From Rhizobium sp. R711 (lineage in GTDB: Bacteria; Pseudomonadota; Alphaproteobacteria; Rhizobiales; Rhizobiaceae): a stretch of DNA of 64,000 nucleotides. Under the pieces are notes generated by a model, which saw nothing but the letters and a program-made list of their open reading frames with translations, searched no databases and was not told the origin of the DNA. The position numbers were made by a program, and so were the translations under genes. Positions 46,537 to 63,682 of the stretch are shown in pieces (the stretch's first letter is position 1; every line of letters begins with the position of its first letter). The stretch lies in assembly GCF_002211365.1 (NCBI RefSeq), contig NZ_LOKZ01000023.1, positions 124,001-188,000 on the forward strand, read 5' to 3'.

Positions 46537-46827
46537 ATGTTGGAAGCGTTCATCTGTGATGCCGTTCGTACACCCATCGGCCGGTATGGCGGTATGTTGG
46601 CAACGACGCGCATAGACGATCTGGCAGCCCTGCCGCTGCCGGACGATGCGCCCCATGTCAATCCGAATGGGGGCGCCATCGCGATGGGCCATCCGCTGGG
46701 CATGAGCGGCGCCCGACTATTCACGACGGCAAGGTATCAATCGCACCGCCAGGGCGGTCGCTATGCGCTTTGCACCAGGTGCGCTGGCGTCGGTCAAGGC
46801 ATCGCAATCATCCTCGAGCGCGTCTGA
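46537..46827 (+). pseudogene. Thiolase (3-oxoadipyl-CoA type) with internal deletion
   Basis: An open frame of 96 codons joins the two ends of a PaaJ/PcaF-type thiolase. The N-terminal [19 protein letters not shown] is followed after about 20 codons by [19 protein letters not shown] and a C-terminal [20 protein letters not shown]. The middle (about 300 residues, including the N-terminal-domain catalytic Cys and the dimer core) is absent. The frame stays open, so this is an in-frame deletion. It cannot be an active thiolase. It sits where an intact thiolase gene would begin the paa operon. Confidence 0.85.
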
Positions 46828-46852
46828 CGCGCGAAGGCCAAGGAGACGAACC

Positions 46853-47857
46853 ATGTACGCGCAGATGGTCAGGACCGACAGCGCCCGCGTCAAGACGCTC
46901 GATGAGATGGATCCGGTCGAACGTGCCTTCCAGGAGCGCATCGACGCTGGCCAGAAGATCGAACCGAAGGAATGGATGCCGGAAGGATACCGCAAGGCGC
47001 TGATACGCCAGATCAGCCAGCATGCGCATTCCGAAATCGTCGGCCAACTGCCGGAGGGCAACTGGATCACCCGCGCCCCGACGCTCGAGCGCAAGGCAAT
47101 ATTACTCGCCAAGGTGCAGGACGAGGCCGGTCACGGTCTCTACCTCTATTGCGCTGCAGAGACGCTCGGCATCAGCCGGGACGAGATGTACGAACAGCTG
47201 CACAGCGGCAAGGCGAAATACTCCTCGATCTTCAACTATCCGACGCTGAGCTGGGCCGATATCGGCGCCATCGGCTGGCTGGTCGATGGTGCGGCGATCA
47301 TGAACCAGGTGCCGCTTCAACGCTGTTCCTACGGGCCTTACGCCCGCGCCATGGTTCGCATCTGCAAGGAAGAAAGCTTCCATCAGCGACAGGGCTTCGA
47401 CATCCTGATCAAGATGGTCAGGGGCACACCCGCCCAGAAGGAAATGGTCCAGGACGCATTGAACCGCTGGTGGTGGCCGTCGCTGATGATGTTTGGCCCC
47501 TCCGACGACGCATCGGTGCACTCGGCCCAGTCGATGTCGTGGAAGATCAAGCAGAACTCGAACGACGAGCTGCGCCAGAAGTTCGTCGACCAGACAGTCC
47601 CACAAGCTGAATATCTCGGCCTGACGGTGCCCGATCCTGATTTGAAGTGGAACGAGGAAAAGGGCGGCTACGACTTCGGCGAACCCGATTGGACCGAGTT
47701 CTTCGCCGTCATCGCGGGCAACGGCCCGTGCAATGCCGAGCGCCTCGGTGCCCGCCAGAAGGCGTGGAACGACGGCGAGTGGTTCCGCGATGGTCTCGTT
47801 GCCCATGCCGAAAAGATGAAATCTCGAGGCTCTACCGCGTCGATGTCGGCCGAATAA
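46853..47857 (+). CDS. paaA: Phenylacetyl-CoA epoxidase subunit PaaA
   Basis: A 334-residue catalytic alpha subunit of the phenylacetyl-CoA epoxidase. Ferritin-like di-iron ligands are in [11 protein letters not shown] and [11 protein letters not shown] (two ExxH motifs). [20 protein letters not shown] and [21 protein letters not shown] are diagnostic. The complex with PaaBCDE epoxidises the ring of phenylacetyl-CoA. Start 46853 with AAGGAG upstream; the frame is open back to 46763 through the thiolase remnant. First intact gene of the operon. Confidence 0.95.
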
Positions 47858-47913
47858 ACAGCATGGCGTCAGAGGGCGCCGCTCTAATCAGTTGCAAGCA
47901 GGGAGAAACACCG

Positions 47914-48198
47914 ATGTCCAGCGAATGGCCCCTCTGGGAAGTCTTCATCCGCGGCCAGCACGGCCTCAATCACCGGCATGTTGGCAGCCTTCACGCACCC
48001 GATGCCGAGATGGCTGTCAACAACGCCCGCGACGTCTACACCCGTCGAAACGAGGGGGTGAGCATCTGGGTGGTTCGTTCCAGCGACATCACGGCCAGCG
48101 CGCCCTCGCAAAAGGGTCCGCTGTTCGATCCGTCGAATTCGAAGGTCTATCGCCACCCGACGTTCTTCGACATTCCCGAAGAAGTGGGGCATATGTGA
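47914..48198 (+). CDS. paaB: Phenylacetyl-CoA epoxidase subunit PaaB
   Basis: A 94-residue protein of normal PaaB size, with the conserved N-terminus WPLWEVFIRGQHGLNHRHVGSLHA-type segment and C-terminal VYRHPTFFDIPEEVGHM. It is a structural bridge in the epoxidase complex. Its stop overlaps the start of paaC (ATGTGATG, TGATG). Upstream GGGAG. Confidence 0.94.
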   Translation: MSSEWPLWEVFIRGQHGLNHRHVGSLHAPDAEMAVNNARDVYTRRNEGVSIWVVRSSDITASAPSQKGPLFDPSNSKVYRHPTFFDIPEEVGHM

Positions 48199-48977
48199 TG
48201 AGTGCGATCTCCAATGTGTCGGTCAGCGACGCGGCGCTTTTTGAGTTCCTGACCCGCCTCGGCGACAATGCCCTGATCCTCGGCCATCGCGTCTCCGAAT
48301 GGTGCGGGCATTCGCCAGCACTTGAAGAGGACATTGCGCTTTCCAACACGGCCCTTGACCTGATCGGTCAGACCCAGCTGTGGCTCGGCCTTGCCGGCGC
48401 GATCGAAGGTCGGGGTCGAAGCGCCGACGATCTCGCCTATCTGCGCGATGCCCGCAACTTCCACAACGTCCTGCTCGTCGAACGTCCGAACGGCGATTTC
48501 GGCAAGACGCTGATGCGTCAGTTCCTGTTCGACGCCTGGCATTTCCTGCTGTTGAAGGCACTGTCGTCATCGACAGACAAACGCATCGCCGACATCGCAC
48601 AAAAGGCCTTCAAGGAAGTGGCCTACCATCTTGATCGCAGCCGCGATCTGATCATCCGTCTTGGTGATGGCACCGCCGACAGCCATCGGCGAATGCAGGA
48701 GGCACTTGACGAGCTATGGGCCTATACCGGCGAATTCTTCATCGGCGACGCGATCGATGCCGAGCTTTCTTCAGCAGGCATCGCACCACGGCCTGAAAGT
48801 CTGAAAGTAGAATGGGACGAGCTGGTCGGCGAGGCCCTGAGCGAAGCGACGCTCAAAAAGCCAGCCGATGGTTTCATGCACAAGGGCGGCAAGCGCGGTG
48901 TACACACCGAACACATGGGTTTCATTCTGGCTGACCTGCAGTTTCTGCAGCGGGCCTATCCGGGCGCGACCTGGTAA
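48198..48977 (+). CDS. paaC: Phenylacetyl-CoA epoxidase subunit PaaC
   Basis: A 259-residue ferritin-like beta subunit. Conserved segments: LGDNALILGHRVSEWCGHSP, YLRDARNFHNVLLVERPNGD, AFKEVAYHLDRSRDLIIRLG and GKRGVHTEHMGFILADLQ. It pairs with PaaA but lacks a working di-iron site in known enzymes. Start overlaps the paaB stop, so translation is coupled. Confidence 0.94.
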   Translation: MSAISNVSVSDAALFEFLTRLGDNALILGHRVSEWCGHSPALEEDIALSNTALDLIGQTQLWLGLAGAIEGRGRSADDLAYLRDARNFHNVLLVERPNGDFGKTLMRQFLFDAWHFLLLKALSSSTDKRIADIAQKAFKEVAYHLDRSRDLIIRLGDGTADSHRRMQEALDELWAYTGEFFIGDAIDAELSSAGIAPRPESLKVEWDELVGEALSEATLKKPADGFMHKGGKRGVHTEHMGFILADLQFLQRAYPGATW

Positions 48978-48992
48978 CGGAAGGAGGCGGTT

Positions 48993-49517
48993 ATGACGAC
49001 CGCAACTTTGCCATCCACGGCCGATATCTGGCAGTGGCTCGGGGAGGTTCCGGATCCCGAAATTCCGGTGATCTCGCTGGTCGATCTCGGCATTATTCGC
49101 GATGTCGCATTTGAGGACGACACATTGGTCGTGACGGTAACACCCACCTATTCCGGCTGTCCGGCAACGGCAATCATCAACCTCGATATCGAGCAGGCGC
49201 TGAAAGAAAAAGGGATCGAAAAGCTGCTGCTGCGGCGCCAGCTTTCGCCCGCCTGGACGACGGACTGGATCAGCACGGACGGTCGCGACAGGCTGCGCGA
49301 CTACGGCATTGCCCCGCCGGTCGCCGGCAGCGCGACAGACGGCATCCTCAACCAGCGCATTAACCGTCTGTCCGGCCGCTCCAATCTGACAATCGCCTGT
49401 CCGCGTTGCGGATCGACGAACACGGAAAAGATCAGCCAGTTCGGCTCGACCCCCTGCAAGGCGAGCTATCGCTGTGCCGACTGTCTTGAACCATTCGATT
49501 ATTTCAAGTGCATCTGA
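48993..49517 (+). CDS. paaD: Phenylacetate degradation protein PaaD
   Basis: A 174-residue protein with an N-terminal MIP18-type domain (EVPDPEIPVISLVDLGIIRDV and VTPTYSGCPATAIINLDIE). The C-terminal zinc-ribbon-like segment has two Cys pairs: CPRCGST and YRCADCLE. Required for the epoxidase, probably in assembling the iron-sulfur cluster of PaaE. Ends 26 bases before paaE. Confidence 0.93.
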   Translation: MTTATLPSTADIWQWLGEVPDPEIPVISLVDLGIIRDVAFEDDTLVVTVTPTYSGCPATAIINLDIEQALKEKGIEKLLLRRQLSPAWTTDWISTDGRDRLRDYGIAPPVAGSATDGILNQRINRLSGRSNLTIACPRCGSTNTEKISQFGSTPCKASYRCADCLEPFDYFKCI

Positions 49518-49543
49518 CCCTTTGCTTGAGTGAGGTCCGCAAT

Positions 49544-50620
49544 ATGGCACGTTTTCATTCTCTTCAGGTCACTGACGTCAGGCGCGAAACGCGCGATGCC
49601 GTGGTCGTCACCCTTGCTCCGCCGGACGAGGACCGTGGTGCGTTCGATTTCACGCAGGGCCAGTACCTGACGTTCCGCCGCAAGTTCGACGGCGAGGAGC
49701 TGCGCCGATCTTATTCGATCTGTGCCGGGCGCAACGAAAGTGTTTTGAGGGTCGGCATCAAGCGGGTGGATGGCGGCTGTTTTTCGACCTGGGCAAATGA
49801 AGAGTTGCGGGTCGGTGATACGCTGGAAGCGATGCCGCCGATGGGTGCATTCTTCACCGCGATCGAACCTGAGGTTTCCAAGAGCTATCTCGGATTTGCC
49901 GGCGGCAGCGGCATCACGCCGGTGCTGTCCATCATCAAGACCACGCTTGCGCACGAGCCCCGTTCACGCTTCACCCTCGTCTACGCAAACCGTCAGATCA
50001 GCTCGATCATGTTCCGTGAGGAACTGGACGACCTGAAGAATACCTATCTTGGCCGCCTGTCGATTCTGCATGTGCTGGAAAGCGAAGCCCAGGATATCGA
50101 CCTTTTCACCGGCCGGATCGACGCGCAGAAGTGCAAGGCGCTCTTCAAGCACTGGATCGATCCGAAGTCGGTCGATACCGCCTTCATCTGCGGTCCAGAA
50201 CCGATGATGCTGACGATCGCCGCCGCCCTTCGCGATCACGGCATGCGCGACGAACAGATCAAATTCGAGCTCTTCGCCTCCTCCCAGCCCGGCCGCGCAC
50301 GCCAAAGGATCGAAAGCGTTTCTGCTTCCGACAGAGAGACCGCGTGCGAGGCGACTGTAACGCTCGACGGCGCCACCCGTGTCTTCAAGATGCCGAAGCA
50401 GGGTCAGACGCTGCTGGAAGCGGCTCTCGAAAACAGCATGGACGCCCCCTATGCCTGCAAGGCAGGCGTCTGTTCGACTTGCCGGGCCAAGGTGATCGAA
50501 GGCGAGACCGAGATGGAGGTCAACCATGCTCTCGAGGACTATGAGGTCCGGCAGGGCTACGTCTTGACTTGCCAGTGCTATCCGCTGAGCGACCGTGTCG
50601 TGGTCAGCTATGATCAATAG
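49544..50620 (+). CDS. paaE: Phenylacetyl-CoA epoxidase reductase PaaE
   Basis: A 358-residue reductase. The N-terminal FAD domain has RRSYSICAG, the NADPH part AGGSGITPVLSIIKTTL, and the C-terminal plant-type ferredoxin domain has four cluster ligands Cys305, Cys310, Cys313 and Cys343 (YACKAGVCSTC and LTCQC). It transfers electrons from NADPH to the PaaA di-iron site. The start at 49544 is the expected conserved N-terminus; a frame upstream is open to 49508. Confidence 0.94.
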   Translation: MARFHSLQVTDVRRETRDAVVVTLAPPDEDRGAFDFTQGQYLTFRRKFDGEELRRSYSICAGRNESVLRVGIKRVDGGCFSTWANEELRVGDTLEAMPPMGAFFTAIEPEVSKSYLGFAGGSGITPVLSIIKTTLAHEPRSRFTLVYANRQISSIMFREELDDLKNTYLGRLSILHVLESEAQDIDLFTGRIDAQKCKALFKHWIDPKSVDTAFICGPEPMMLTIAAALRDHGMRDEQIKFELFASSQPGRARQRIESVSASDRETACEATVTLDGATRVFKMPKQGQTLLEAALENSMDAPYACKAGVCSTCRAKVIEGETEMEVNHALEDYEVRQGYVLTCQCYPLSDRVVVSYDQ

Positions 50621-50645
50621 TCCGCGATAGAACGGAGACCAATCA

Positions 50646-51401
50646 ATGTCCGATACGATGCCGATCGAGGAATATCTGCTCAAAGGGGGCGTGCTGACGT
50701 CGCCCGACAATGCGCCTCCTCGTTATCGCGGCGAGCTTCTGCGCCTGATGGCGAGTTTCGTCGACAGCGAGCTTGCCGGCGCTGCCGGCTTTGCCGACAC
50801 GATCAACGATGCGCCCGGGATCAAGGAGCGCATCGCGTCTGCCAAGATCGTGCTCGAAAAGACCGATCATGCGGGTCGCGTGCTGGAGATCATGGGAAGC
50901 TTCGGCGCCGATACCGGCCGTTATGCGATACATCATCCGTGGGATGCGCGCCTGGCACGCGATGCCGACATCGGTGCTGCGCGTCAGGGCGGCGACATGC
51001 GCCTTTCGGTTTTTCACTATCCGCTGCAGGGCTGGATCGACGCGGTCGTCATGAACGTGCTGATGGGCACTGCAAGCACTTTCCAGCTGCGCGAACTCAC
51101 ACACGTTTCCTATCAGCCACTTGCCGACGTGTTCCGCGCGATCCTGCCGCGGGAGGCCCATCACACCGACCTTGGCATCGAAGCGCTGAACCGGATTGCT
51201 GAAAGTGAAAATGGCGCGAGGGCGGCGCGTGAGGCGATCGCCTATTGGCGCCCGCGCGTTGCCGCAAGCTTCGGGCTATCTGCCTCGGCCCGATTTGAAA
51301 CGCTGGCTCGCTTTGGCCTTCGCCACACACCCAACGAGGCGCTGATGTCTGAATGGCGAGCGGCCATTGATGCGCGGCTTGCTGCGTGCAATCTGAACTG
51401 A
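50646..51401 (+). CDS. Paa-type ferritin-like protein, extra paralogue
   Basis: A 251-residue protein of the phenylacetic acid catabolic protein family (PF05138 fold), distinct from the paaA and paaC products. The second metal motif is present as REAHHTDLG (ExxH). In the first, the DEAGH of PaaA is replaced by TDHAGR, so a standard di-iron site is doubtful. It is encoded between paaE and paaZ, 25 bases after paaE. It could be a structural or regulatory partner of the epoxidase, or act on another substrate. The family is clear; the function is not known to me. Confidence 0.8.
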   Translation: MSDTMPIEEYLLKGGVLTSPDNAPPRYRGELLRLMASFVDSELAGAAGFADTINDAPGIKERIASAKIVLEKTDHAGRVLEIMGSFGADTGRYAIHHPWDARLARDADIGAARQGGDMRLSVFHYPLQGWIDAVVMNVLMGTASTFQLRELTHVSYQPLADVFRAILPREAHHTDLGIEALNRIAESENGARAAREAIAYWRPRVAASFGLSASARFETLARFGLRHTPNEALMSEWRAAIDARLAACNLN

Positions 51402-51414
51402 CCGGAAGGATAAA

Positions 51415-53475
51415 ATGATGGACGTTCTGGTAAACCCGCCGCGTCGCCTCGAAAGCTACGTCTATGGCCGCTGGGTTCGCGGCACCAGGGATGGCGCCGA
51501 ACTGCGCGACGCCTCCACGGGCGTACCGGTGGCATGGATTGATTCGACCGGCGTGGACTTTGCTGCGTCTCTCTCCTATGGCCGCCAAAGCGCGGGCCCG
51601 ACGCTGCGCCGCATGTCGTTTCACGAACGTGCCGCCATGCTGAAGGCGCTTGGCCAGGCGCTGATGGAGCGCAAGGAGGAGTTCTACCTCCTTTCGTCGG
51701 CAACCGGTGCGACGAAGGCAGACAGCTGGATCGATATCGACGGTGGTATCGGCACGTTGCTGTCCTATGCCTCAAAAGGCCGGCGCGAGCTGCCCAATAC
51801 CCGTGTGCTCATCGATGGCGACGTGGAAACGCTGTCGCGCGATGGCACGTTCGCGGCGCGGCACATCCTGTCGCCGCTGCAGGGTGTCGCAGTTCACATC
51901 AATGCCTTCAATTTTCCGGTCTGGGGCATGTTGGAGAAGCTGGCGCCGACCCTGCTTGCCGGCATGCCGGCGATCGTCAAGCCGGCAAGCCAGACGGCCT
52001 ATCTTACCGAGCTGGTTGTCCGCCGTATGGTCGAAACCGGTCTTTTGCCCGAAGGCGCCGTGCAACTTGTCTGCGGTTCTGTCGGCGACCTCCTGGACCA
52101 CGTCGACGGACAGGATGTTGTCACGTTTACGGGTTCGGCGCGGACCGGCCGCAAACTGAAAACGCATCCGGCGATCATCGACAATTCCGTGCGCTTCACC
52201 ATGGAGGCAGACAGCCTCAATGCCTCAGTCCTCGGCCTTGACGCCGGACCTGGCACCGTGGAATTCGACCTTTTCGTCAAGGAAGTCTCCCGTGAAATGA
52301 CGGCAAAGGCCGGCCAGAAGTGCACCGCGATCCGCCGTATCATCGCACCCCGCGTTTATTGCGACGCGCTGATCTCCGCCCTTGAGGAACGCCTTGGCAA
52401 GACAGCACTTGGCAACGCGGCCGATGACAACGTCCGCATGGGTCCGCTTGCAAGCCTTGCCCAGCGCGACGAGGTCCGTGCCCGCATTGGCGATCTGCTT
52501 GCCGACGCCGAAATCGTCGCCGGCGACCCTGACAATCCGTGTATCGTGTCGGGTGACGCCGATGCCGGCGCCTTCCTCAATCCGGTTCTCCTTTATTGCG
52601 ACAAGCCATGGGAAGCCAAGGCCGTTCACGACGTCGAGGCCTTCGGCCCCGTTAGCACGGTGATGCCCTATGAGAGCGCTGAAGAGGCCGTCGACCTTGC
52701 CCGTCGTGGCAAGGGAAGCCTGGTATCGTCGGTCTTCACGAACGATCCAGCCTTTGCCGAAGACGTCGTCCTTGGCATGGCGCCGTTCCACGGTCGCGTG
52801 CTGATCGGCAACCGCGTGAGTGCAAGGACGTCGACTGGACACGGCTCTCCGTTACCGGGCCTGGTGCATGGTGGCCCCGGACGCGCCGGCGGCGGCGAGG
52901 AGCTCGGTGGACTGCGCGGGGTAAAGCACTACATGCAGCGAACCGCCGTGCAGGCTTCGCCCACACTTTTGTCGGCTGTCACCGGCCGCTGGGTTGCGGA
53001 TGCCGAGGTGCGCAAGGATGGCGAACATCCGTTCCGCAAGTCGCTGGCCGAATTGCGCGTCGGCGACCAGCTCGTCACCGGCACGCGCGTGGTCACGCTC
53101 GAGGATATCGAGCATTTTGCCAACTTCACCGGTGACACCTTTTACGCCCACATGGACGAGGAAGCCGCCCGCGCCAATCCCTTCTTTGACGGGCGTGTTG
53201 CCCACGGCTATCTGATCGTCTCCTTCGCTGCTGGCCTGTTTGTCGACCCAGCTCCCGGTCCGGTCCTTGCTAATTATGGCATCGACAACTTGCGTTTCCT
53301 CACGCCGGTCAATTCGGGGGACACCTTGCAGGTGCAACTGACCTGCAAGGAAATCAATCCGCGCATCGGCGCTGAGCATGGTGAGGTGCGCTGGGATTGC
53401 AGGGTGACCAACCAGAACGGTGCGACGGTCGCGCAATACGACGTGTTGACGATGGTCGCCAGGACAAGGAACTGA
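51415..53475 (+). CDS. paaZ: PaaZ bifunctional hydrolase/dehydrogenase
   Basis: A 686-residue fusion. Residues 1-530 are an aldehyde dehydrogenase with catalytic Cys303 ([11 protein letters not shown]); the C-terminal 130 residues are a MaoC-type hotdog hydratase with [15 protein letters not shown] and [14 protein letters not shown]. PaaZ opens oxepin-CoA and oxidises the resulting semialdehyde to 3-oxo-5,6-dehydrosuberyl-CoA. Normal length for the family. The start is at the first of two ATGs (51415 or 51418), after GGAAGGA. Confidence 0.94.
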
Positions 53476-53480
53476 ACGAG

Positions 53481-54095
53481 ATGGCGCAGGTCTACTCCTA
53501 TGACGGCGTCGTGCCCGTCATCCATCCGACGGCCTTCATTCATCCAGCAGCGGTTGTGATCGGCGATGTCATCATCGGCCCCGCCTGCTATGTCGGCCCC
53601 TGTGCCGTGCTGCGAGGTGATTTCGGACGGATCGTCATGGAACGCGGCTCAAACGTCCAGGAGACCTGCGTTGTTCACAGCTTTCCCGACGTCGAGGTGG
53701 TGATTGGCGAAGGCGGCCATATCGGCCACGGAGCGGTTCTGCACGGCTGCCGGATTGGTCGCAATGCCATGGTCGGGATGAACGCGGTCGTCATGGACGA
53801 AGCGGTAATCGGCGAAAATTCGATCGTTGCAGCCATGGCTTTCGTCAAGGCCGGGGCCGATATCCCCCCAAACAGCCTTGCGGTCGGATCGCCAGTCAGG
53901 GTCATTCGCGAGCTCAGCGAAAAAGAGATCGCCTGGAAGCGCCAGGGAACCGGAATCTATCAGCGCCTTGCCCTGGAGGCCAAAGATAAGCTTCGACCCG
54001 TTGAGCCGCTGAACGAACCGGAGGCAGACCGTCAGCGGATCGAGGCTCCGAAATATGATCCGTTGATCCTGGAGCGGCTTAAATTCGTTGACTGA
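53481..54095 (+). CDS. paaY: PaaY gamma-carbonic-anhydrase-like protein
   Basis: A 204-residue left-handed beta-helix protein with hexapeptide repeats ([35 protein letters not shown]). Metal-ligand histidines are in TCVVHSFP and [10 protein letters not shown]. In other bacteria PaaY is a thioesterase that removes dead-end CoA adducts. The start five bases after paaZ gives the conserved N-terminus. It closes the paa operon; no paaF, G, H or I follows. Confidence 0.92.
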
Positions 54096-54378: not shown

Positions 54379-55386
54379 TCAGCGAGCAGATACACGCGTC
54401 AAGACGTGAAGGTTGCCGCCCAGCTCGGAAACGACGATCCGCCGTTCATCCCAGACAAGCACAGACACTGGGCGGGTCAGGCCCTCGAGAATAGTCTTCC
54501 GTTCCCGCCCCACTTTATCGAACTTGAGCAATCTTCCGCTCGCCTTGCGAAAACCATCCTTCTGGTCGTAGGTGCCGTGTTCGAGAACAAGCATTTCTCC
54601 ACCCTTGTCGAAAGCAACACTTACCGGCGCATTGAGAGCTTCTACCTCAATCTGCGGCGTTGACTGATCGCCAGCTTCGGGAAGCGAAACGATCTTTCCA
54701 CCTCCGGCAAGGAAAGGAAAGCCGCCGAACAGCGCTATGTAGAGGCGCCCTTCGTGAAGGGCGATACCAGTCGGCACAGAATCGGTTTCGTAACTGTTGC
54801 CTTCGGCGAACTCCGTCGGGGAAAGGCTGCGGAGCGCCGTTGGCGCCTGGCTCATGCGGCGGAATGTCAAAAGCGTGCTTTTCCGGCCGTCGGGCCGTAT
54901 GCGCTCGAGACTGTTTCGTGCGGAGTCGACTACGTAGTAGCTTCCGCTCGCTGCAATGAAGTCGAACGGATTCCAGAAATCACTGCTGATGACATGGACC
55001 TGACCGGCGGCGTCGATCGAAACGAGCGCGTGGTCGAATGGCCCCTCCTTGGAGCCGACCGGCGTCCATCCCTGGGCGACGACAACGCCATCGCCGGTAC
55101 GGACCACACGATAGGGACCCGTCGGGTCGCCGATCACGTCGAGGCCATGGGGAAATACCGGACCGAATGCGACAAGCTTGCCGTCCGCGCCGCGCCGGTA
55201 GAGCCGGCCGCTGGCGAGATCGCTGACGAGCAAGCCTCCGGCATCGCGAGACAGGCCGGCGAAGGCGGCACCAGGCGTGTTGAAGGTCTCGAGCGTGTAG
55301 CCGGCCGACGCCGTCGGCACGGCACCGGCGCCAGCGGCTAGGAGTAGAAAAGCGGCTACGACAATCAAGGTGCAGAACGCACGCAT
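54379..55386 (-). CDS. Secreted ScyD/ScyE-type beta-propeller protein
   Basis: A 335-residue exported protein. Signal peptide at 1-29 (VVAAFLLLAAGAGAVPTASA). The mature part has a ScyD/ScyE-type arrangement of propeller blades: GLLVSDLASGRLYRRGADGKL, SIDAAGQVHVISS, YYVVDSARNSLERIRPDG and VALHEGRLYIALFGG-like. Such proteins bind or act on small molecules; in cyanobacteria two members belong to the scytonemin cluster. Here it is the last gene of a sugar-ABC operon and overlaps the end of the FGE-like gene by 22 bases. Periplasmic location fits; the function is unknown. Confidence 0.75.
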   Translation of the reverse strand: MRAFCTLIVVAAFLLLAAGAGAVPTASAGYTLETFNTPGAAFAGLSRDAGGLLVSDLASGRLYRRGADGKLVAFGPVFPHGLDVIGDPTGPYRVVRTGDGVVVAQGWTPVGSKEGPFDHALVSIDAAGQVHVISSDFWNPFDFIAASGSYYVVDSARNSLERIRPDGRKSTLLTFRRMSQAPTALRSLSPTEFAEGNSYETDSVPTGIALHEGRLYIALFGGFPFLAGGGKIVSLPEAGDQSTPQIEVEALNAPVSVAFDKGGEMLVLEHGTYDQKDGFRKASGRLLKFDKVGRERKTILEGLTRPVSVLVWDERRIVVSELGGNLHVLTRVSAR

Positions 55387-56153
55387 CTGAAACCACCATT
55401 GGCTGAGAACCGGAATTCAGGCTCATAGGCGAGGCGATATGTCGTTGTCAGGTGGCTTGGATCGCTGTTCCAGGAGCCACCACGAAGCACGCGGTATACC
55501 CCGGTGTTCTTCGCCGCGGTCCCACCTTCATACGGGGCGTAGACATCGCGAGTCCACTCCCAGACATTGCCGACAAGATTGAGGACGCCCTCCTTGCTTG
55601 CGCCATCGGCAAAGGACGCCGCCGGTGCGGTCATCGGATACCCATCGCGCGCGTCTGCGGAACAACAGACATCGGCTCCGGCATTTGTCCGCGCAATGCC
55701 TGGTGGGACCTCGCCCCATGGAAACGCGCCGCCCTTCGTTCCTCGCGCCGCCCGTTCGTACTGTCGTTCCGATGGAAGATCCAACCCGTAGTGACGGCAA
55801 AATGCATCGGCATCTCCCCAACTGACCCCGACGACCGGTCGGTCGTCCAATCCGAGGATTGGGTGATTGGCATAGAAGGCCGCACGATGGCCGGTCTCCT
55901 TGACGAAGAGCTCATATTGCTGGTTTGTAATCTCGGTGCGATTGATCGCAAACGCCTGCCCCTCCAGTTCCAGCCGCGGGCGTTCGTTTTCAGGGCCGTC
56001 GTCGCGGCCGAAGATGAACGTCCCGGCAGGAATTTCAATCAGCGGATTTTCAGCGGTGAAGCGGCCATCGGCAGCACTCGCACCAAATGCCAGGGTGATC
56101 ACCATCGCCGCCGTCCAAAGGCTAGAAGTCAACACGGTCGTTAGTCCGGCCAT
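55365..56153 (-). CDS. Exported SUMF1/FGE-like protein, Cys pair missing
   Basis: A 262-residue protein of the formylglycine-generating-enzyme fold. The signal peptide is at 1-28 (MAGLTTVLTSSLWTAAMVIT, cleaved near ASAADG). Family motifs: IPAGTFIFGRDD, EITNQQYELFVKETGH, PVVGVSWGDADAFCRHYGLDLPS, LVGNVWEWTRDV and LRGGSW. The C-terminus GGFRCV is typical, but between GGSW and GFRC no cysteine is present where active FGE has its copper-binding pair, so this is not a canonical sulfatase activator. Overlaps the ABC ATPase end by 32 bases and the ScyD-type start. Its place in a sugar transport operon is unusual. Confidence 0.8.
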   Translation of the reverse strand: MAGLTTVLTSSLWTAAMVITLAFGASAADGRFTAENPLIEIPAGTFIFGRDDGPENERPRLELEGQAFAINRTEITNQQYELFVKETGHRAAFYANHPILGLDDRPVVGVSWGDADAFCRHYGLDLPSERQYERAARGTKGGAFPWGEVPPGIARTNAGADVCCSADARDGYPMTAPAASFADGASKEGVLNLVGNVWEWTRDVYAPYEGGTAAKNTGVYRVLRGGSWNSDPSHLTTTYRLAYEPEFRFSANGGFRCVRSAP

Positions 56154-57183
56154 CGAACAGAAAGACGCGATCCGTCGCGACCTTGACGCCGATCTGCTGG
56201 TCGATCTGACCCGTGAAATTCTTGTCGGCACGCAAGGTGACGAGTTGACCTCCCAACCGCAGGCTCACAAGCGTATTCTCGCCGGTGAGTTCCGCCGAAT
56301 AGATCGGCGCCATCAGATTGACGTCTGCATCGCCGGCATCAGTGGGGTGGACGTCCTCCGGGCGGACGCCGAGGACCGCTGAAGAGACGTTTGCCCGGCC
56401 GATACCGGTAACCCTGAGGCCGGAACTGGCGAACACACCGTCTCTCACTTCTCCCGGAATGAGGTTCATCGGCGGCGAGCCGACAAAGCCGGCAACGAAG
56501 AGTGTGCGGGGATCGTTATAGATTTCCCGCGGCGTCCCAAGCTGCTCGACGACGCCATTATTCATCACGGCCACTCGATGGGCCAGCGTCATCGCTTCTA
56601 TCTGGTCATGGGTGACATAGATCGTCGTGACCTTAAGCTCATGCTGCAGATGCTTCAGCTCGGCGCGCATCTGCGTGCGAAGCTTGGCGTCGAGATTGGA
56701 CAGCGGCTCGTCCATCAAAAATACGCGTGGCGTGCGTACGATAGCGCGGGCAAGTGCCACGCGCTGGCGCTGACCGCCGGAAAGCTCCTTCGGCAGCCGC
56801 GACAACATCGGTTCGAGTTCCACGCGCCGTGCGACTTCGGCTATTCGTCGCTTGCATTCAGCCGGCGGAACTTTGCGGATCTTTAGCGGGTAGCCGATAT
56901 TGTCTTCGACGGTGAGGTGTGGATACAAAGCATATGACTGGAATACCATGGCGACGTCGCGATACTTGGGAAGGACACCATTGACGCGGTCCTCGTCGAT
57001 GTAGATGTCGCCGAGTGTCGCTTCCTCCAGCCCCGCAACCATCCGCATGGTCGTTGTTTTGCCGCAACCGGAAGGTCCGAGCAAAACGAGAAACTCGTTG
57101 TCCCTGATCTCGAGGTTGAAATCACGAACGGCAACGAATTCACCGAACTTCTTGCAAACGTTGTTGAATGTGACGGATGCCAT
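56122..57183 (-). CDS. Sugar ABC transporter ATPase, UgpC/MalK type
   Basis: A 353-residue ATPase of the CUT1 class. Walker A GPSGCGKT at residues 36-43; signature LSGGQRQRVALARAI; Walker B VFLMDEPLSNLD; the C-terminal TOBE part has LGVRPEDVHPTD. It drives import with the two permeases upstream. Start 57183 begins the conserved MASVTFNNV; the frame is open to 57270. Five bases after the second permease. Confidence 0.93.
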   Translation of the reverse strand: MASVTFNNVCKKFGEFVAVRDFNLEIRDNEFLVLLGPSGCGKTTTMRMVAGLEEATLGDIYIDEDRVNGVLPKYRDVAMVFQSYALYPHLTVEDNIGYPLKIRKVPPAECKRRIAEVARRVELEPMLSRLPKELSGGQRQRVALARAIVRTPRVFLMDEPLSNLDAKLRTQMRAELKHLQHELKVTTIYVTHDQIEAMTLAHRVAVMNNGVVEQLGTPREIYNDPRTLFVAGFVGSPPMNLIPGEVRDGVFASSGLRVTGIGRANVSSAVLGVRPEDVHPTDAGDADVNLMAPIYSAELTGENTLVSLRLGGQLVTLRADKNFTGQIDQQIGVKVATDRVFLFDGRTNDRVDF

Positions 57184-57188
57184 AGGCC

Positions 57189-58064
57189 TCAACCTTTGAC
57201 GGCGCCCAGGGACAATCCCCGGACGAGATGCTTCTGGACGATGAAGGCGAAGATGACGATTGGCACGCATGCCATGAACCCCGCCGCGCTGATTTCACCC
57301 CAATATGTATTGTACTGCGTTACTCGCCCGGCAATGCCAATGGGCAGCGTCTGCGACTGCTCGGTGAGCGTGATGATGAGGGAAAGTAGAAACTCGTTCC
57401 ACGAAATGATCACGCAGAAGATCGCGGTGGCTGCAAGCCCGGGCCGGGCAAGAGGCAGCGCCACATGCAGGAATGCACCCCACCGTGTGTCGCCGTCGAC
57501 GATCGCCGCCTCCTCCAGCTCGACCGGAAGATCTTGGAAGTAGCTCTTCATCATCCAAGTCGCGAAGGGGAGATTGAAGGCGGTGTAGGCGACGATGAGA
57601 GCCGACTTCGTGTTGAGCATGTCGAAGTAGTTGAAGAACAAGTAGAGCGGAATGATGCTGACGATGGGCGGCATCATGCGCGTTGACAGGATCCAGAACG
57701 AAATCTGCTTCCGCCACTGCCAGGGATAGCTGAACCGGGCCAAGGCATAGCCGGCCATTGTGCCGAAGGTTACCGAAACGGTCGTCGTTCCTACGGCGAC
57801 GAGCAAGCTGTTTAGCGCGTAGCGCAGGAACGGACGCTGGATAAACGCTTCATTGTAGTGTTTTAGGGTGGGGTTGCGGGGCAGCCATTCAGGCGGTACT
57901 GCGAAAATGTCGATATCATATTTGAACGAGTTGGTCGCAATCCAGTAGATCGGAAAAAGTGTGACGACCAGCGCGACAACGATCGTCAGATAGGCCAGCA
58001 GGCGGATGAGAACCTCCTTGGTCCGGCTGCGCGCGTATATGGTTTTTGGCAGTGTCATGGTCAT
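57189..58064 (-). CDS. Sugar ABC transporter permease, MalG type
   Basis: A 291-residue CUT1 permease with six membrane spans. The first span reads LLAYLTIVVALVVTLFPIYW, and the EAA coupling loop is EEAAIVDGDTRWGAFLHVALPLARP. The start overlaps the MalF-type stop (AATGACC), so the two are coupled. Confidence 0.93.
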   Translation of the reverse strand: MTMTLPKTIYARSRTKEVLIRLLAYLTIVVALVVTLFPIYWIATNSFKYDIDIFAVPPEWLPRNPTLKHYNEAFIQRPFLRYALNSLLVAVGTTTVSVTFGTMAGYALARFSYPWQWRKQISFWILSTRMMPPIVSIIPLYLFFNYFDMLNTKSALIVAYTAFNLPFATWMMKSYFQDLPVELEEAAIVDGDTRWGAFLHVALPLARPGLAATAIFCVIISWNEFLLSLIITLTEQSQTLPIGIAGRVTQYNTYWGEISAAGFMACVPIVIFAFIVQKHLVRGLSLGAVKG

Positions 58065-58984
58065 TCCGCCAACCGCATGCGTTTCATGAACCAGCTGCTT
58101 AAGATGATCGTTACGAACAGCACGAAAAGCGACATCGCGGCCGCGTAGCCTGGATCGGCGAAGCGGTAGGCGACCTGATAAATATAAAGGCTCAAGACCT
58201 TGGTCCGGTCAGCCGGGCCCCCTCCCGTCAGTATGAAGACCAGATCGAAAAGACGCAGTGCATCCATGACACGCAGGAGAAGCGCAATGGCGATGACCGG
58301 CTTGAGGAACGGCAGCGTCAGGTCCCGGAACTGCTGCCAGGACGATGCTCCGTCGAGCGCAGCGGCCTCATAGGGCTCGACTGGCAAGCTTGCCAACCCC
58401 GCCAGCATTAGAAGAAATATGAAGGGTGTCCATTGCCAGACATCGGCAACGATGATCGAGAACATCGCAAGGTTGACGTCGCCCGCCCATGCCTGCAATG
58501 GCAGGCCAAGGCGGAACATGATTTCGTTGAGGACGCCGAACTGAGGTTCATAGATCAGCTTCCACGTGATCGCGACCGCGATCGGCGGCAGCATCATCGG
58601 GATCATCAGGACGGTCTTCAAAAAGGTCAGCTTGCGGATGAATTTATTGAGGAGCAGGGCCAGGCCGAGACCGAGGACGAATTCCGCCGTTACCGCCACG
58701 ACTGCAAATATGGTGGTATTCCAGAGCGCCACGTGAAATTGCGTGTCGGACAAAAGCCGCGCAAAATTATCAGCACCGACGAAGGTCCAGGGCAGATCGG
58801 GATTCGGGCTGATTTTGTGAACCGCTGCATAGAACATGTAGACGCTGGGAAAGATCGTCAGGCTTAGAAGCATAAGGACTGTCGGCGCAAGCATGAGGAA
58901 ACGCAAATGCCGCTCCACCCATTGCTCCAGACCGGCGCCCACTCGAGGCGGCGCGGCCAAGCTTTGACTTTGCGACGTCAACAT
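58061..58984 (-). CDS. Sugar ABC transporter permease, MalF type
   Basis: A 307-residue CUT1 permease, six or seven membrane spans. It begins with a short cytoplasmic segment and then RFLMLAPTVLMLLSLTIFPS. The EAA loop is YEAAALDGASSWQQFRDLTLPF. GGPADRTKVLSLYIYQVAYRF is the conserved C-terminal loop of this class. Lies 122 bases after the binding-protein gene. Confidence 0.93.
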   Translation of the reverse strand: MLTSQSQSLAAPPRVGAGLEQWVERHLRFLMLAPTVLMLLSLTIFPSVYMFYAAVHKISPNPDLPWTFVGADNFARLLSDTQFHVALWNTTIFAVVAVTAEFVLGLGLALLLNKFIRKLTFLKTVLMIPMMLPPIAVAITWKLIYEPQFGVLNEIMFRLGLPLQAWAGDVNLAMFSIIVADVWQWTPFIFLLMLAGLASLPVEPYEAAALDGASSWQQFRDLTLPFLKPVIAIALLLRVMDALRLFDLVFILTGGGPADRTKVLSLYIYQVAYRFADPGYAAAMSLFVLFVTIILSSWFMKRMRLAE

Positions 58985-59106
58985 TGACCTCTCCCGTAAG
59001 CCCTGCCACGGCGCGCCTGAATTCTCGGGTTACCGGCACATCGGACGCGGTTGCCGGCGCAGTCAAGGGAGCGGCGTTTGAAAACCCCGCTCCGAACGGC
59101 TGTCGC

Positions 59107-60366
59107 CTAGTAAAGGTTCGTAATCCGTGAGACCGCCTCCTGCGAGTTCTTCAGAGCTTCTTGCGGCGTGATCGTGCCTGCGACCACCTTGGAAAGCTCG
59201 ATGCCGAAGGCATTCTCGATCTCTGGCCACTTCGGGTGACGCGGGCGGGGGGTCGAGGCCTGGATTGCCTGCATCAACACCGGATAGTGCCGGAACTTCT
59301 CCTGCGAGGTCAGTTCCGGGTCGGTGAAGACCGAGGTCCGGACCGGCGGATTGCCACGTAGCGCCGAAATCTTCATCTGTTCGGGCGAGGTTGCCCACAT
59401 CATGAAGTCGAATGCTTCCTGCTTATTCTTGGAAGCCGACATGATGCCCATGGTCCAATGGCCGATTTCCGAGCTGCCCGGTTTCGTTCCGGCGGGAATG
59501 GGACTGTAGGAAATCTTGCCGACCATCTTCGATTGCGTCGGATCCTCAAAGGTCGCAACCCAGTTCGGCCAGTTGATCGATGAAGCAGCGGTACCGGCGG
59601 CGAGCGCGGTGCCAACCTCGTTGGCGTTGTAGCTCTCCACGCCCTTCGGCGAGACATCGCGTAGCGCAATGAATGTCTTCATCGCAGCCGCCCCTTCTGG
59701 CGTATCGATCGTTACCTTCGTTCGGTCAGCGTTGAACATATCAGCGCCATAGGACCAGAAGATTGGCATGAAATCGGCAACCACCGGATTTCCTTGCCCG
59801 CCTCGGAAGACGTAACCGAAATAGCGGCCACCTCCGCCTTCTGTCAGCTTCTTGCTCGCCTTCAACACGTCATCCCATGTCTTTGGAGCATCGACGCCGG
59901 CTTCCTTGTACTTGGCGGCGTCATAGAAGAACATCTGCGCGTTCCCCACATAGGGTAGACATACGTAGGGTCCCGTATTGTAGGGATTGCGGCAGACCGC
60001 CAGGGACTTCGAAAGGAAGTCACTGTCCGGCCCTTCCATTCCGGCCTTCTTGAAGTAAGCGGTCAAATCCTCCAGATGTCCGTTCTCGGCGAAAAACGGA
60101 ATCCACGGATCGTCCATGAGGATAATGTCGAACACACCGGACTTGGTCGCACCCGCATTGGCGCCTTGCTCGAAGACGTTGGCATAAGGCGCCTGTACGG
60201 CCTCCACCTTCGTGCCCTTCAACTTTGCGTAGTCCCCGGCAGCGGCCCTCAGACCGTCGCCCTCGCTGCCCGACGGCACGAGGATCGTGATATCGGCCCA
60301 TGCGGCTCCATTGATTGCGAGTGCGGACGTCGCAATAGCCAGGGTGAGAAACAATCTGCGAAGCAT
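59107..60366 (-). CDS. Sugar ABC transporter binding protein (CUT1)
   Basis: A 419-residue extracellular solute-binding protein (family 1). Signal peptide 1-24 (FLTLAIATSALAINGAAWA). The mature part has VFDIILMDDPWIPFFAENGH and GVESYNANEVGTALAAGTAA, and ends near SQEAVSRITNLY. Start: ATG 60366 with GGAGGTG before it. First gene of a six-gene minus-strand operon: binding protein, two permeases, ATPase, FGE-like protein and ScyD-type protein. The ligand is unknown; a sugar, polyol or sugar-acid is usual for the class. Confidence 0.92.
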   Translation of the reverse strand: MLRRLFLTLAIATSALAINGAAWADITILVPSGSEGDGLRAAAGDYAKLKGTKVEAVQAPYANVFEQGANAGATKSGVFDIILMDDPWIPFFAENGHLEDLTAYFKKAGMEGPDSDFLSKSLAVCRNPYNTGPYVCLPYVGNAQMFFYDAAKYKEAGVDAPKTWDDVLKASKKLTEGGGGRYFGYVFRGGQGNPVVADFMPIFWSYGADMFNADRTKVTIDTPEGAAAMKTFIALRDVSPKGVESYNANEVGTALAAGTAASSINWPNWVATFEDPTQSKMVGKISYSPIPAGTKPGSSEIGHWTMGIMSASKNKQEAFDFMMWATSPEQMKISALRGNPPVRTSVFTDPELTSQEKFRHYPVLMQAIQASTPRPRHPKWPEIENAFGIELSKVVAGTITPQEALKNSQEAVSRITNLY

Positions 60367-60804
60367 TGTACACCTCCCATTCCGAGATGTTATCGCGAGG
60401 CCCCGGAGAGGGGCTTCACCTTTCCGGCATAGCGGAAACGCCGCCTTGGCACCCCGGCAAACCGCTTTGCGAAAAGTCGAAACATCGCCCGGCATCTCAT
60501 CCTCGAGCGAGTTGCAAATTTTATCACATCGGGGGTTTTATTTAGAGTGTCTGTATCCGCATTTTTTTTGATTTTTCACCGGTTCTCGCGCAGTTCCGGC
60601 GGCGGCTTTGCGCTTGCGAAGCTGTCTGATGAAGGGATAGCGGCAACAAGCGACATTGCCCTCAAACGTCCATCTGAGACTTGAGCCGTCACGCTCGCAA
60701 GCTAAGCTGACCTCGAGCGAAAGCTTGAGCTTTACGTCCGTCTTTGGGGCACGCACCTGCGGGGCTTCCTTTCTCTTTGGGATTTCTGACATATATTAGA
60801 AATC
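60367..60804. other. Divergent promoter region, no certain gene
   Basis: About 440 bases between the binding-protein gene and nfeD. An 84-codon minus-strand frame (60538-60792) is open but has no ribosome binding site and starts only 12 bases before the nfeD start, so I do not call it. Promoters of both operons should lie here. Confidence 0.5.
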
Positions 60805-62208
60805 ATGAGCGTTCCGGAGGTGGTAGCGCTGAGTTTAAGGTGTTGGCGATGGCTATCGCCAATGCTGATCTTGTTGTTCACGCTGTTCTCAACTCCTAGC
60901 ATCTTCACACTATCAGCGTCGCAAACCAACCGCGCTGCGGTCGTCCTCAAGGTGAGCGGCGCCATTGGGCCTGCAACAGCAGACTATGTGACACGGGGCA
61001 TTCAGCGGGCTGGCGGAGCGGGCCTGATTATCCTTGAGATGGACACGCCCGGCGGCCTTGACACCTCCATGCGGGTCATCATTCGCGCGATCCTTGCCTC
61101 GCCCGTGCCAGTCGCCGGCTTCGTCGCACCGAGCGGTGCGCGGGCTGCGAGCGCCGGCACCTATATTGTCTATGCATGCCACATTGCGGCGATGGCGCCA
61201 GGCACCAACTTGGGAGCAGCGACACCGATCGCGATCGGCGTAAATCCTTTTGGCGGTGATACGAAACCCGAAAAGGAACCGGGCAAACAAAACGACAAGC
61301 CAGCCGAGGCTCCAGGCAGCGCCAGCGACAAAAAACTCATCAACGACGCGGTAGCCTATATTCGCGGGCTTGCGGAACTGCGCAATCGCAACGCCGACTG
61401 GGCAGAGCGTGCCGTGCGGGAAGGCGCGAGCCTTTCATCGACTGCAGCCGTGCGCGAACATGTCATTGATTTCACAGCGGTTGATGTCAACAATCTGCTT
61501 GCGCAGGCACAAGCGCGCATCGTGCAGGTCGGCCAGACCGACATCCAAATAGATACCACCGGTTTAGCTGTCCAGGAATTCGAACCGGACTGGCGCACGC
61601 GACTGCTTTCGGTAATTACCGATCCGAACATTGCAATCATCCTGATGATGGTCGGCATCTACGGTCTGATCTTCGAATTTCTTGCGCCGGGGACGATGCT
61701 TCCCGGCACGATCGGCGGCATCTGCCTCCTTCTCGGTCTTTATGCCTTGGCACTGCTTCCGGTAAGTTTTGCCGGCATTGGGCTTATCGTCCTCGGCGTG
61801 GGATTGACGGTTGCCGAGATCCATTCGCCAAGCTTCGGCGCCTTTGGCATTGGCGGCGGGATTGCCGTGATCCTGGGCGCAACCATTCTGTTCGATACGG
61901 ATATGCCGGGCCTTCAGGTTTCGCGTCCTTTACTTGGCACAATCGCTCTTGCATGCCTTGCTTTCAGCCTTCTCGTTGCTCGCCTGGCATTTACCTCGCG
62001 GCGGCGCGACGTCGCGACGGGCGCAGAGCAGATGATCGGCATTTCGGGCAAGGTCGAGAGTTGGGCTGGAGCGACGGGTTACGTCATCGCGCATGGCGAG
62101 CGCTGGAAGGCTATTTCCGCCGATGCGCTTACCGCAGGGGACCCTGTCAGCGTAATTGCCCGCAACGGGCTGATGCTTAAGGTCGAAAGGCGCATCAACG
62201 AGACTTAG
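60805..62208 (+). CDS. nfeD: Long NfeD-type membrane serine protease
   Basis: A 467-residue NfeD/ClpP-class protein. The N-terminus has a signal or membrane segment (residues 19-36). A ClpP-like protease domain follows, with [14 protein letters not shown], nucleophile Ser116 ([10 protein letters not shown]) and candidate Lys176/Lys177 as in archaeal 1510-N. An inserted charged linker ([18 protein letters not shown]) lies between them. Four or five membrane spans (about 270-400) and a C-terminal OB-type NfeD domain complete it. Such proteins process partner slipins, one of which is encoded next. Alternative start at 60862. Confidence 0.9.
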
Positions 62209-62233
62209 CGGCTTGAAGGCAGGAGAAGACGTC

Positions 62234-62995
62234 ATGGCTATGTTTGCAGATCTTGCGTTTTATCTTGTGGCGATCCTGATTTTGCTCGTCATCATTGCAT
62301 CCGCGGTCAAGATCCTGCGGGAATACGAACGCGGCGTCGTTTTCACATTTGGCCGCTTTACCGGCGTCAAGGGACCCGGGTTGATACTCCTTGTGCCCTA
62401 CGTCCAGCAGATGATACGGGTCGACTTGCGCACGCGCGTACTCGATGTCCCCAGCCAGGACGTTATCTCGCACGATAATGTATCGGTGCGCGTCAGCGCC
62501 GTGATCTACTTCAGGGTCATCGATCCCGAGAAGTCGACGATACAGGTCGAAGACTTCATGATGGCCACAAGTCAGCTTGCCCAGACGACATTGCGCTCTG
62601 TCCTTGGCAAGCACGACCTCGACGAGATGCTGGCAGAGCGCGACAGGCTCAACCTGGACATTCAAGAAATCCTTGACACGCAAACGGATGCCTGGGGCAT
62701 CAAAGTTGCCACGGTCGAGATCAAACATGTCGATATCAACGAATCGATGATCCGTGCAATAGCGCGCCAAGCGGAAGCCGAACGCGAGCGCCGGGCAAAG
62801 GTCATCAATGCCGAAGGTGAGCAGCAGGCGGCTGCAAAGCTCCTCGAAGCGGCCGAAATACTCGCCAAGCAGCCGGAGGCCATGCAACTTCGCTACTTAA
62901 GCACCCTGAACGTCATCGCCAGCGAGAAGAACTCAACCGTCTTGTTCCCGTTTCCGATGGAACTCGGCAACCTCATGTCCGGCAAACCGAAATAA
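62234..62995 (+). CDS. Slipin (SPFH/band 7 membrane protein)
   Basis: A 253-residue slipin. One N-terminal membrane segment ([20 protein letters not shown]), then the SPFH domain with [20 protein letters not shown] and [20 protein letters not shown], and a coiled-coil ([20 protein letters not shown]). Slipins form membrane scaffolds and are cut by NfeD-type proteases. Starts 25 bases after nfeD with AGGAG, so a two-gene operon. Confidence 0.93.
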
Positions 62996-63085: not shown

Positions 63086-63682
63086 TTAGCGGACCGCCTT
63101 GACGCCCTCGAGGATAAGGGTGGTGGCGATGTCGGCATATTCGTCGCGGCTGACCGGACCGCCTGGACGAAACCACATATAGACCCAGTTCATCATGCCG
63201 AAGAGCGACATGGTCACCGGCATCAGCAGCGGCTTGTTCGCATTGAGATCCGGGTTGATCTCGATGATGGTATTCGAAAACCGCTTGACGATCCGCCTTT
63301 CGATTTCCCGCAGCTCGTCGAGTTGTTCGCGGGAAAGCGCGCTGGTACCGTTCAGTTGCACCTTGTGCTCGTTGTCGGCGCCGCGATAATTTTCCAATAC
63401 CTGACGGACGAGGAGCCGCAATCTCTCCTGAGGAGAGACTGCGGGTTGATCTGCGGCAGCAACGGCAGCTTCCAACTCCTCGAGATGGTTGCGAATGATA
63501 TCGAAGATCAGGGCATCCTTGCTCGGATAATAATGATAAAGCAGGGCTTTAGAAACATTGCTGCGCGAGGCGATGTGAGCCATGGAGGCTTTCTCCATTC
63601 CCATCTCGGCAAAAACGGCAGCAGCGCTGCTGAGGAGGCTGCGTTGTTTCTCTTCAAAGTCGATCGCGCGCGTTCGTGCCAT
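63086..63682 (-). CDS. paaR: TetR family regulator, PaaR-like
   Basis: A 198-residue TetR repressor. The helix-turn-helix reads MAHIASRSNVSKALLYHYYP (about residues 34-53), followed by a ligand domain with WVYMWFRPGGPVSRDEYADI, typical of PaaR. PaaR proteins repress phenylacetate genes and are released by phenylacetyl-CoA. It lies 107 bases downstream of paaK on the same strand. A matching operator is found before the paa epoxidase operon (46477-46492). Confidence 0.82.
   Translation of the reverse strand: MARTRAIDFEEKQRSLLSSAAAVFAEMGMEKASMAHIASRSNVSKALLYHYYPSKDALIFDIIRNHLEELEAAVAAADQPAVSPQERLRLLVRQVLENYRGADNEHKVQLNGTSALSREQLDELREIERRIVKRFSNTIIEINPDLNANKPLLMPVTMSLFGMMNWVYMWFRPGGPVSRDEYADIATTLILEGVKAVR

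Follow-up and report, generated by a model that had tools for sequence, protein, structure and literature searches.

A rhizobial CUT1-type importer operon with two constant partners, an FGE-fold protein and a ScyD/ScyE-family beta-propeller

A 64,000-nucleotide stretch of Rhizobium sp. R711 (contig NZ_LOKZ01000023.1, positions 124,001–188,000; hereafter the window, with position 1 its first letter) holds a minus-strand operon of six genes, running from 60366 down to 54379, in which a CUT1-type ATP-binding cassette (ABC) importer is extended by a protein of the formylglycine-generating enzyme (FGE) fold and a ScyD/ScyE-family beta-propeller. The operon stands up as real and is both conserved and unusual, in that two constant partners extend the importer, and its six genes were found in the same order and on the same strand in 32 of 32 loci. 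The two added proteins are tentatively read as obligate partners of this one importer that would handle its ligand in the periplasm. This reading, plausible if short of probable, is based on the fixed composition and order, the matching presence and absence of the solute-binding protein (SBP) and the propeller, the gene overlaps, the signs of purifying selection, the conservation of a block upstream, and the exchange of one half of the operon as a unit.

Composition and distribution of the operon

A preliminary description of this DNA had reported six packed minus-strand genes encoding an importer, an FGE-like protein, and a ScyD-type propeller. All of these frames are present and their families were matched in scans, with the features arranged as follows.

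60518–60547, minus strand: conserved promoter-like block, CTCTAAATA ... TGTGATAAAAT (alignment of 33 upstream regions)
59107–60366, minus strand: SBP, an SBP_bac_1 solute-binding protein of 419 residues (PF01547, 180.4 bits against 26)
58985–59106, minus strand: SBP–PermA gap of 122 bp (frame coordinates)
58061–58984, minus strand: PermA, CUT1 permease, UgpA-like (BPD_transp_1, 72.8 bits)
57189–58064, minus strand: PermB, CUT1 permease, MalG/UgpE/GlcU-like (BPD_transp_1, 71.4 bits)
56122–57183, minus strand: ATPase, UgpC/MalK-like (NF008653, 442 bits against a cut-off of 432)
55365–56135, minus strand: FGE-fold protein of the SUMF1/EgtB/PvdO superfamily (PF03781, 158.8 bits against 23.3)
54379–55386, minus strand: ScyD/ScyE-family beta-propeller (NF033206, 99.4 bits against a cut-off of 80)

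With PF01547 in the SBP, PF00528 in both permeases, and a MalK/UgpC-type ATPase carrying OB and TOBE domains (ABC_tran, 108.7 bits; OB_MalK, 29.6 against 27; TOBE_2, 21.8 against 21), the operon is by family membership a CUT1-type importer, and sugar or polyol transport is predicted. The best NCBIfam match of PermA is UgpA (116.4 bits, under the cut-off of 335), and the NCBIfam matches of PermB are all under their cut-offs. The 122 bp between SBP and PermA are the sole larger gap, and its predicted RNA folding does not stand out from that of shuffled sequence (z −0.02). All other junctions are of 5 bp or are overlaps: PermA and PermB overlap by 4 bp, the ATPase gene likely starts at 57183 (MASV), 5 bp past the PermB stop, and the FGE and propeller genes overlap by 22 bp. 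Of the two overlaps reported earlier, the 22 bases between these last genes stand, while the 32 bases between the ATPase and FGE genes give way to a probable 14 bp. The longer overlap requires an ATG at 56153, found there or in an equivalent position in 19 of 32 relatives, against 31 of 32 (25 at the same distance, six shifted) for the GTG at 56135, which is therefore the likely start of the FGE gene. The frame ahead of the FGE domain is longer, and its start uncertain, in nine Sinorhizobium/Ensifer loci (L023, L029, L031–L037); the longer frames of L023, L034, and L035 have in common a near-identical peptide stretch by the N-terminus, between the ATPase and the FGE domain, which suggests an inserted repeat.

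The 32 distinct loci came from a propeller scan of named genomes and belong to Rhizobium, Sinorhizobium/Ensifer, Pararhizobium, Phyllobacterium, and one further Rhizobiales bacterium. Three protein alignments draw on them: A1 (the window and 27 loci, omitting L023, L028, L031, L034, and L035), A2 (29 loci, omitting L027, L028, and L032), and A3 (16 loci). The SBP, which has an export-type N-terminus as judged by eye, is 86–97% identical to the 16 orthologues in A3. The FGE/propeller overlap is of 22 bp in 31 of the 32 loci and of 25 bp in L018. A neighbourhood search had been proposed as a check on whether the FGE-like/ScyD pair accompanies this importer elsewhere, and the pair does so in all 32 loci and in a sample of the family. 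In that sample (394 genomes), the propeller profile (E 1e-5) and the SBP profile (E 1e-50) identified the same 16 genomes; the FGE gene lies directly before the propeller gene in 14 of them (L045–L058), the remaining two being the window genome and G029 (L011). SBP and propeller are on separate contigs in G715, each close to a contig end. The propeller was present in 2 of 398 genomes of a phylum-wide sample, both from the genus of the window. Within that genus it was present in 5 of 60 genomes, a count that includes the window genome and omits a weak match in G058 (30% across a portion of the protein). Among plasmid records, the propeller occurred in 22 and the SBP in 27, namely the same 22, all with an SBP of at least 60% identity, and five with distant SBPs under 60% identity. 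These collections overlap and their species are related, such that these counts are not independent events, and the absences rest on searches in which few first-look candidates were scored per genome (mostly at most five for A2 and four for A3).

The promoter-like block upstream of the SBP ends in an extended -10-like TGTGATAAAAT, with no clear -35; closer to the SBP start, the 33 upstream regions also conserve the ribosome-binding region and a dyad. The preliminary description held that a promoter of their own together with unrelated regulation would speak against coupling of the two added genes; no promoter-like site was found inside the operon by a simple consensus scan, a weak test given that it fails to pick up even the conserved block upstream of the SBP. 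This promoter scan returned 1 site against 2.2 expected and a terminator scan 11 against 6.6 expected, from which nothing is drawn beyond the lack of a promoter-like site within the operon. A regulon search with the upstream block (up to three mismatches) recovered this single site in the window genome. Folding of the leader RNA was unremarkable (z −1.64, 11 of 200 shuffles as good), and no regulator gene could be named in more than four of the 32 loci, the one present in four being of the LysR family.

The FGE-fold protein and the propeller

The FGE-sulfatase domain (PF03781) is the sole Pfam domain matched in the first of the two added proteins, and the name FGE-like therefore holds for family membership, although not for the canonical copper cysteines. 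In a MAFFT alignment with the CAPNYC motif of the paralogue L001, the first copper-cysteine column is S in all 28 rows and the second is T (27 rows) or A (1 row), with L at the second column in a HMMER alignment to human FGE, such that cysteine occupies neither column in any of the 28 rows. Judged by these columns, the protein is no canonical formylglycine-generating enzyme. It also scores far under the equivalog cut-offs for EgtB (93.2 against 360 bits) and SenA (98.7 against 420 bits), and far under those for PvdO (53.4 against 500 bits) and GldK; searched against PDB sequences, the FGE profile gives matches from E 8e-30 and reaches structures of PvdO, EgtB, and PorK. Invariant residues of the FGE-like protein include a CC pair at 157–158, and the protein is probably exported. 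The paralogue, a PF03781 protein at 1447–2421 of L001 (contig C37 of the window genome), keeps CAPNYC. The next gene encodes a HAD-like protein whose N-terminus, judged by eye, is of the export type, and the 3.9-kb stretch around the paralogue holds no recognised sulfatase.

The propeller, also probably exported, matches NF033206 at E 0.001 in all 30 rows of A2, and in the window protein the match spans residues 139–322 of 335. Its structure model (predicted local distance difference test [pLDDT], 87.0; predicted template modelling score [pTM], 0.85) aligns with six-bladed NHL, SMP-30-like, and Cj1041c structures (Z 25–28, up to 28.4, over ~240 residues), at 13–23% identity among the matches listed. 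The model settles the predicted fold without implying function: SMP-30/gluconolactonase is a fold match only, and no Pfam family was assigned to the propeller at E 0.001. Beta-propeller phytase, considered given the inositol lead described below, was not among the matches listed, which does not exclude one. Polar residues that are invariant include N139, N252, E269, H270, and R305.

Averaged over all pairs of 33 rows, identity is 0.88–0.91 for the SBP, permeases, and ATPase, 0.77 for the FGE-like protein, and 0.70 for the propeller. Ratios of non-synonymous to synonymous substitution rates (dN/dS) for five pairs are 0.03–0.07 for the SBP, 0.17–0.24 for the FGE-like protein, and 0.17–0.29 for the propeller. 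The two added genes are thus under purifying selection, which marks them as real genes, and are less constrained than the SBP.

Exchange of the SBP–permease half and the sister importers

A second form of SBP–PermA–PermB occurs in three lineages, Sinorhizobium shofinae (L030), G820 (L047, L074), and Rhizobium jaguaris (L087). Second-form SBPs are 90–94% identical to one another, and L030 matches the other two at 92–93% in PermA and 85–89% in PermB (that of G820 being partial), against at most 80% identity of the second form to the remaining rows. The ATPase, FGE-like protein, and propeller of these lineages do not group together. Those of L030 are nearest to S. fredii-type rows (84–96%), those of R. 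jaguaris to R. freirei, R. miluonense, or R. sullae (ATPase, 89%; FGE, 81%; propeller, 76%), and those of G820 to other Rhizobium or Ensifer rows (ATPase, 88%; FGE, 77%; propeller, 77%). In L030, a sliding window puts one change point close to the signal-peptide region of the SBP and the other at about the junction of PermB and ATPase; for R. jaguaris, a megablast alignment with the window extends into PermB, and its exchange edge may differ from that of L030. Mature SBPs of types I and II are separated by 27 fixed differences. Since the second-form importers share this recognition half beside unlike ATPase–FGE–propeller backgrounds, the half has, by these identities, moved as a unit while the ATPase–FGE–propeller half stayed. 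Apart from the swap, the halves show no strong split. Importer-half and accessory-half distances correlate at r 0.23–0.38 with L030 included, largely owing to that mosaic locus, and without it at 0.52–0.68, compared to 0.77–0.85 among ATPase, FGE, and propeller and 0.58–0.74 among SBP and permeases. This natural exchange shows which parts of the operon travel together and which stay.

Outside the clade, the nearest kin found for the importer are on three Burkholderia plasmids and in Paraburkholderia sprentiae, Paracoccus seriniphilus, and G870, with SBP identities of 33–38% and permease identities of 35–43% (L083, L089, L093, L084, L085). A PI-PLC-X homologue lies ~1–2 kb from the importer in all three Burkholderia loci (by Pfam domain scan in L083 and by tblastn in the others) and directly downstream in P. 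sprentiae. The next gene in Paracoccus encodes an inositol monophosphatase family protein (best NCBIfam match, histidinol phosphatase, under cut-off), and the contig of G870 ends within PermB, where the neighbourhood is uninformative. Of 14 sister stretches searched at E 0.01, none encodes a homologue of the FGE-like protein or the propeller. The rhizobial and Burkholderia/Paracoccus clades group in an SBP tree (support 82/85), and 71 SBP positions, including D85, D86, W88, N142, R188, N193, W204, W266, W304, and R343, are invariant over 32 type I, three type II, and four sister SBPs, a pattern that would suit a shared pocket. The PI-PLC-X or inositol-monophosphatase genes near the closest sister importers give a weak lead on the ligand, which would most likely be a polyol or cyclitol, with an inositol phosphate or phosphodiester as a candidate, if an unlikely one. 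Haloarchaeal kin (SBP, 29–32%) have a Gfo/Idh/MocA oxidoreductase annotated nearby in seven of eight loci and a methylmalonate-semialdehyde dehydrogenase in three of eight, with neither gene in L094; the scanned proteins of L090 and L099 fall under cut-off for IolG (103 against 355 bits) and IolE (66.5 and 77 against 290 bits), and these neighbours give only a hint of an inositol-type ligand. A sulfatase-like gene is located between the permease and ATPase genes in haloarchaeal L091 (9387–10958) and L101 (9387–10946).

The flanks of the operon vary between loci. In the window, phenylacetate-type catabolic genes (46763–54095, plus strand) end 283 bp from the propeller gene end, in convergent orientation, and comprise a PaaA/PaaC-like protein, an Aldedh-MaoC fusion like PaaZ, and a hexapeptide protein like PaaY (three assigned by Pfam, most by eye). 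Upstream of the operon are an NfeD-like and SPFH-like pair (60805–62995, plus strand; by eye and from the plasmid annotation of a homologue) and a TetR regulator (63086–63682, minus strand; Pfam). In S. fredii NGR234 (L086, 16665–17696), which carries the operon on pNGR234b, and in six of the 32 loci (L023, L030, L031, L033, L035, and L036), the propeller gene is followed after ~0.7–1.6 kb by a gene that presumably encodes a GlnII-type glutamine synthetase; in NGR234, the gene ~0.76 kb from the operon is accordingly taken to be glnII. With this neighbour, the NGR234 operon is probably distinct from NGR_b20230–20260, a sugar importer induced in NGR234 bacteroids, as GlnII is NGR_b20670 in the available part of the same paper (PMC3732241). 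The available parts of PMC5789663 and PMC10970691 contain nothing attributable to the operon, and searches of open-licence papers found no description of a system with this composition, in agreement with the preliminary description.

Proposed role and relation to known systems

In the favoured reading, the FGE-like protein and the propeller would be exported to the periplasm (N-termini judged by eye), where both would bind or chemically prepare the ligand, or pass it to the SBP, and the ATPase would then drive its import. The earlier proposal, in which the pair may act on the ligand in the periplasm by processing, modifying, or binding it, is compatible with this sequence of predicted steps. 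Several points weigh against it. Ligand, activity, and location remain predicted, and the two added genes evolve faster than the importer genes. The N-terminus of the FGE-like protein, read from the GTG, carries no positive charge in the window copy, which makes its export uncertain, and its structure model was poor (pLDDT 43.7) and was not used, such that its fold rests on sequence. Crude clustering of open reading frames in the fetched flanks found no additional family shared by over 10 of the 32 loci, and thus nothing catabolic or regulatory tied to the operon; the exception was an antisense frame in 13 loci that overlaps the ATPase and FGE genes, and the clustering split permease and ATPase genes that tblastn finds all present. 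The clade grouping reaches only 82/85, and at 33–38% SBP identity the ligand may differ. Further, the P. sprentiae PI-PLC-X protein and the monophosphatase have no obvious export signal (by eye), unlike the rhizobial pair, and the sister accessory proteins would therefore not be functional equivalents of the FGE-like protein and propeller.

Among the alternatives, it is conceivable, though unlikely, that the two proteins work without catalysis, as a binding scaffold or a receptor on which the ligand is captured or the SBP docks. The missing copper cysteines (28 of 28 rows) are consistent with this, and non-enzymatic FGE-fold proteins and binding propellers exist, but an active site would account equally well for the polar residues that are invariant in the propeller. 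It is rather improbable that the pair performs other envelope work (maturation, redox, or cofactor tasks in the manner of PvdO) and merely shares the operon: the reach of the FGE profile to PvdO, EgtB, and PorK structures would allow it, as would the inferred nature of the ligand link, but presence and absence match the importer and the genes overlap. A canonical FGE activating a sulfatase that frees the sugar is very improbable despite PF03781 membership, as cysteine is lacking at both copper columns, no sulfatase gene lies in the operon or was identified among the scanned flanking families, and the window genome holds another copy with the CAPNYC motif (L001); this candidate is disfavoured. 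The idea that unrelated genes happen to lie side by side in a single strain has practically no probability left, being refuted by six genes kept together in all 32 loci, whose flanks differ.

A bolder version of the obligate-partner reading, speculative and improbable as a whole, would have the FGE-fold protein and propeller condition the ligand in the periplasm, with one or both acting as a catalyst that does not use the FGE copper site, as an obligate first stage in the import of inositol phosphates, inositol phosphodiesters, or related cyclitols, and the recognition half (mature SBP, PermA, and PermB) exchanged between lineages as a cassette before a constant ATPase–FGE–propeller half. Gene order and shared presence link a single importer to two largely uncharacterised families, the ScyD/ScyE propellers and the FGE-fold proteins that lack the copper site, and the role of both is therefore testable through an uptake phenotype.

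Compared with known systems, the FGE-like protein shares PF03781 with the FGE/SUMF1 superfamily (EgtB, SenA, PvdO, PorK/GldK) and differs in having no copper cysteine pair. The propeller passes the profile of the ScyD/ScyE family, named after cyanobacterial scytonemin genes, and differs in its gene neighbourhood and in the partial coverage of the match (139–322); with six-bladed propellers (Cj1041c, NHL, SMP-30/gluconolactonase) it has the common fold at only 13–23% identity. The Burkholderia, Paraburkholderia, and Paracoccus SBP–PermA–PermB loci are the closest importer kin found and have PI-PLC-X or inositol monophosphatase genes in place of FGE and propeller. With CUT1 importers of the Mal and Ugp type, the operon shares SBP_bac_1, two permeases, and a UgpC-like ATPase, to which it adds two probably exported proteins.

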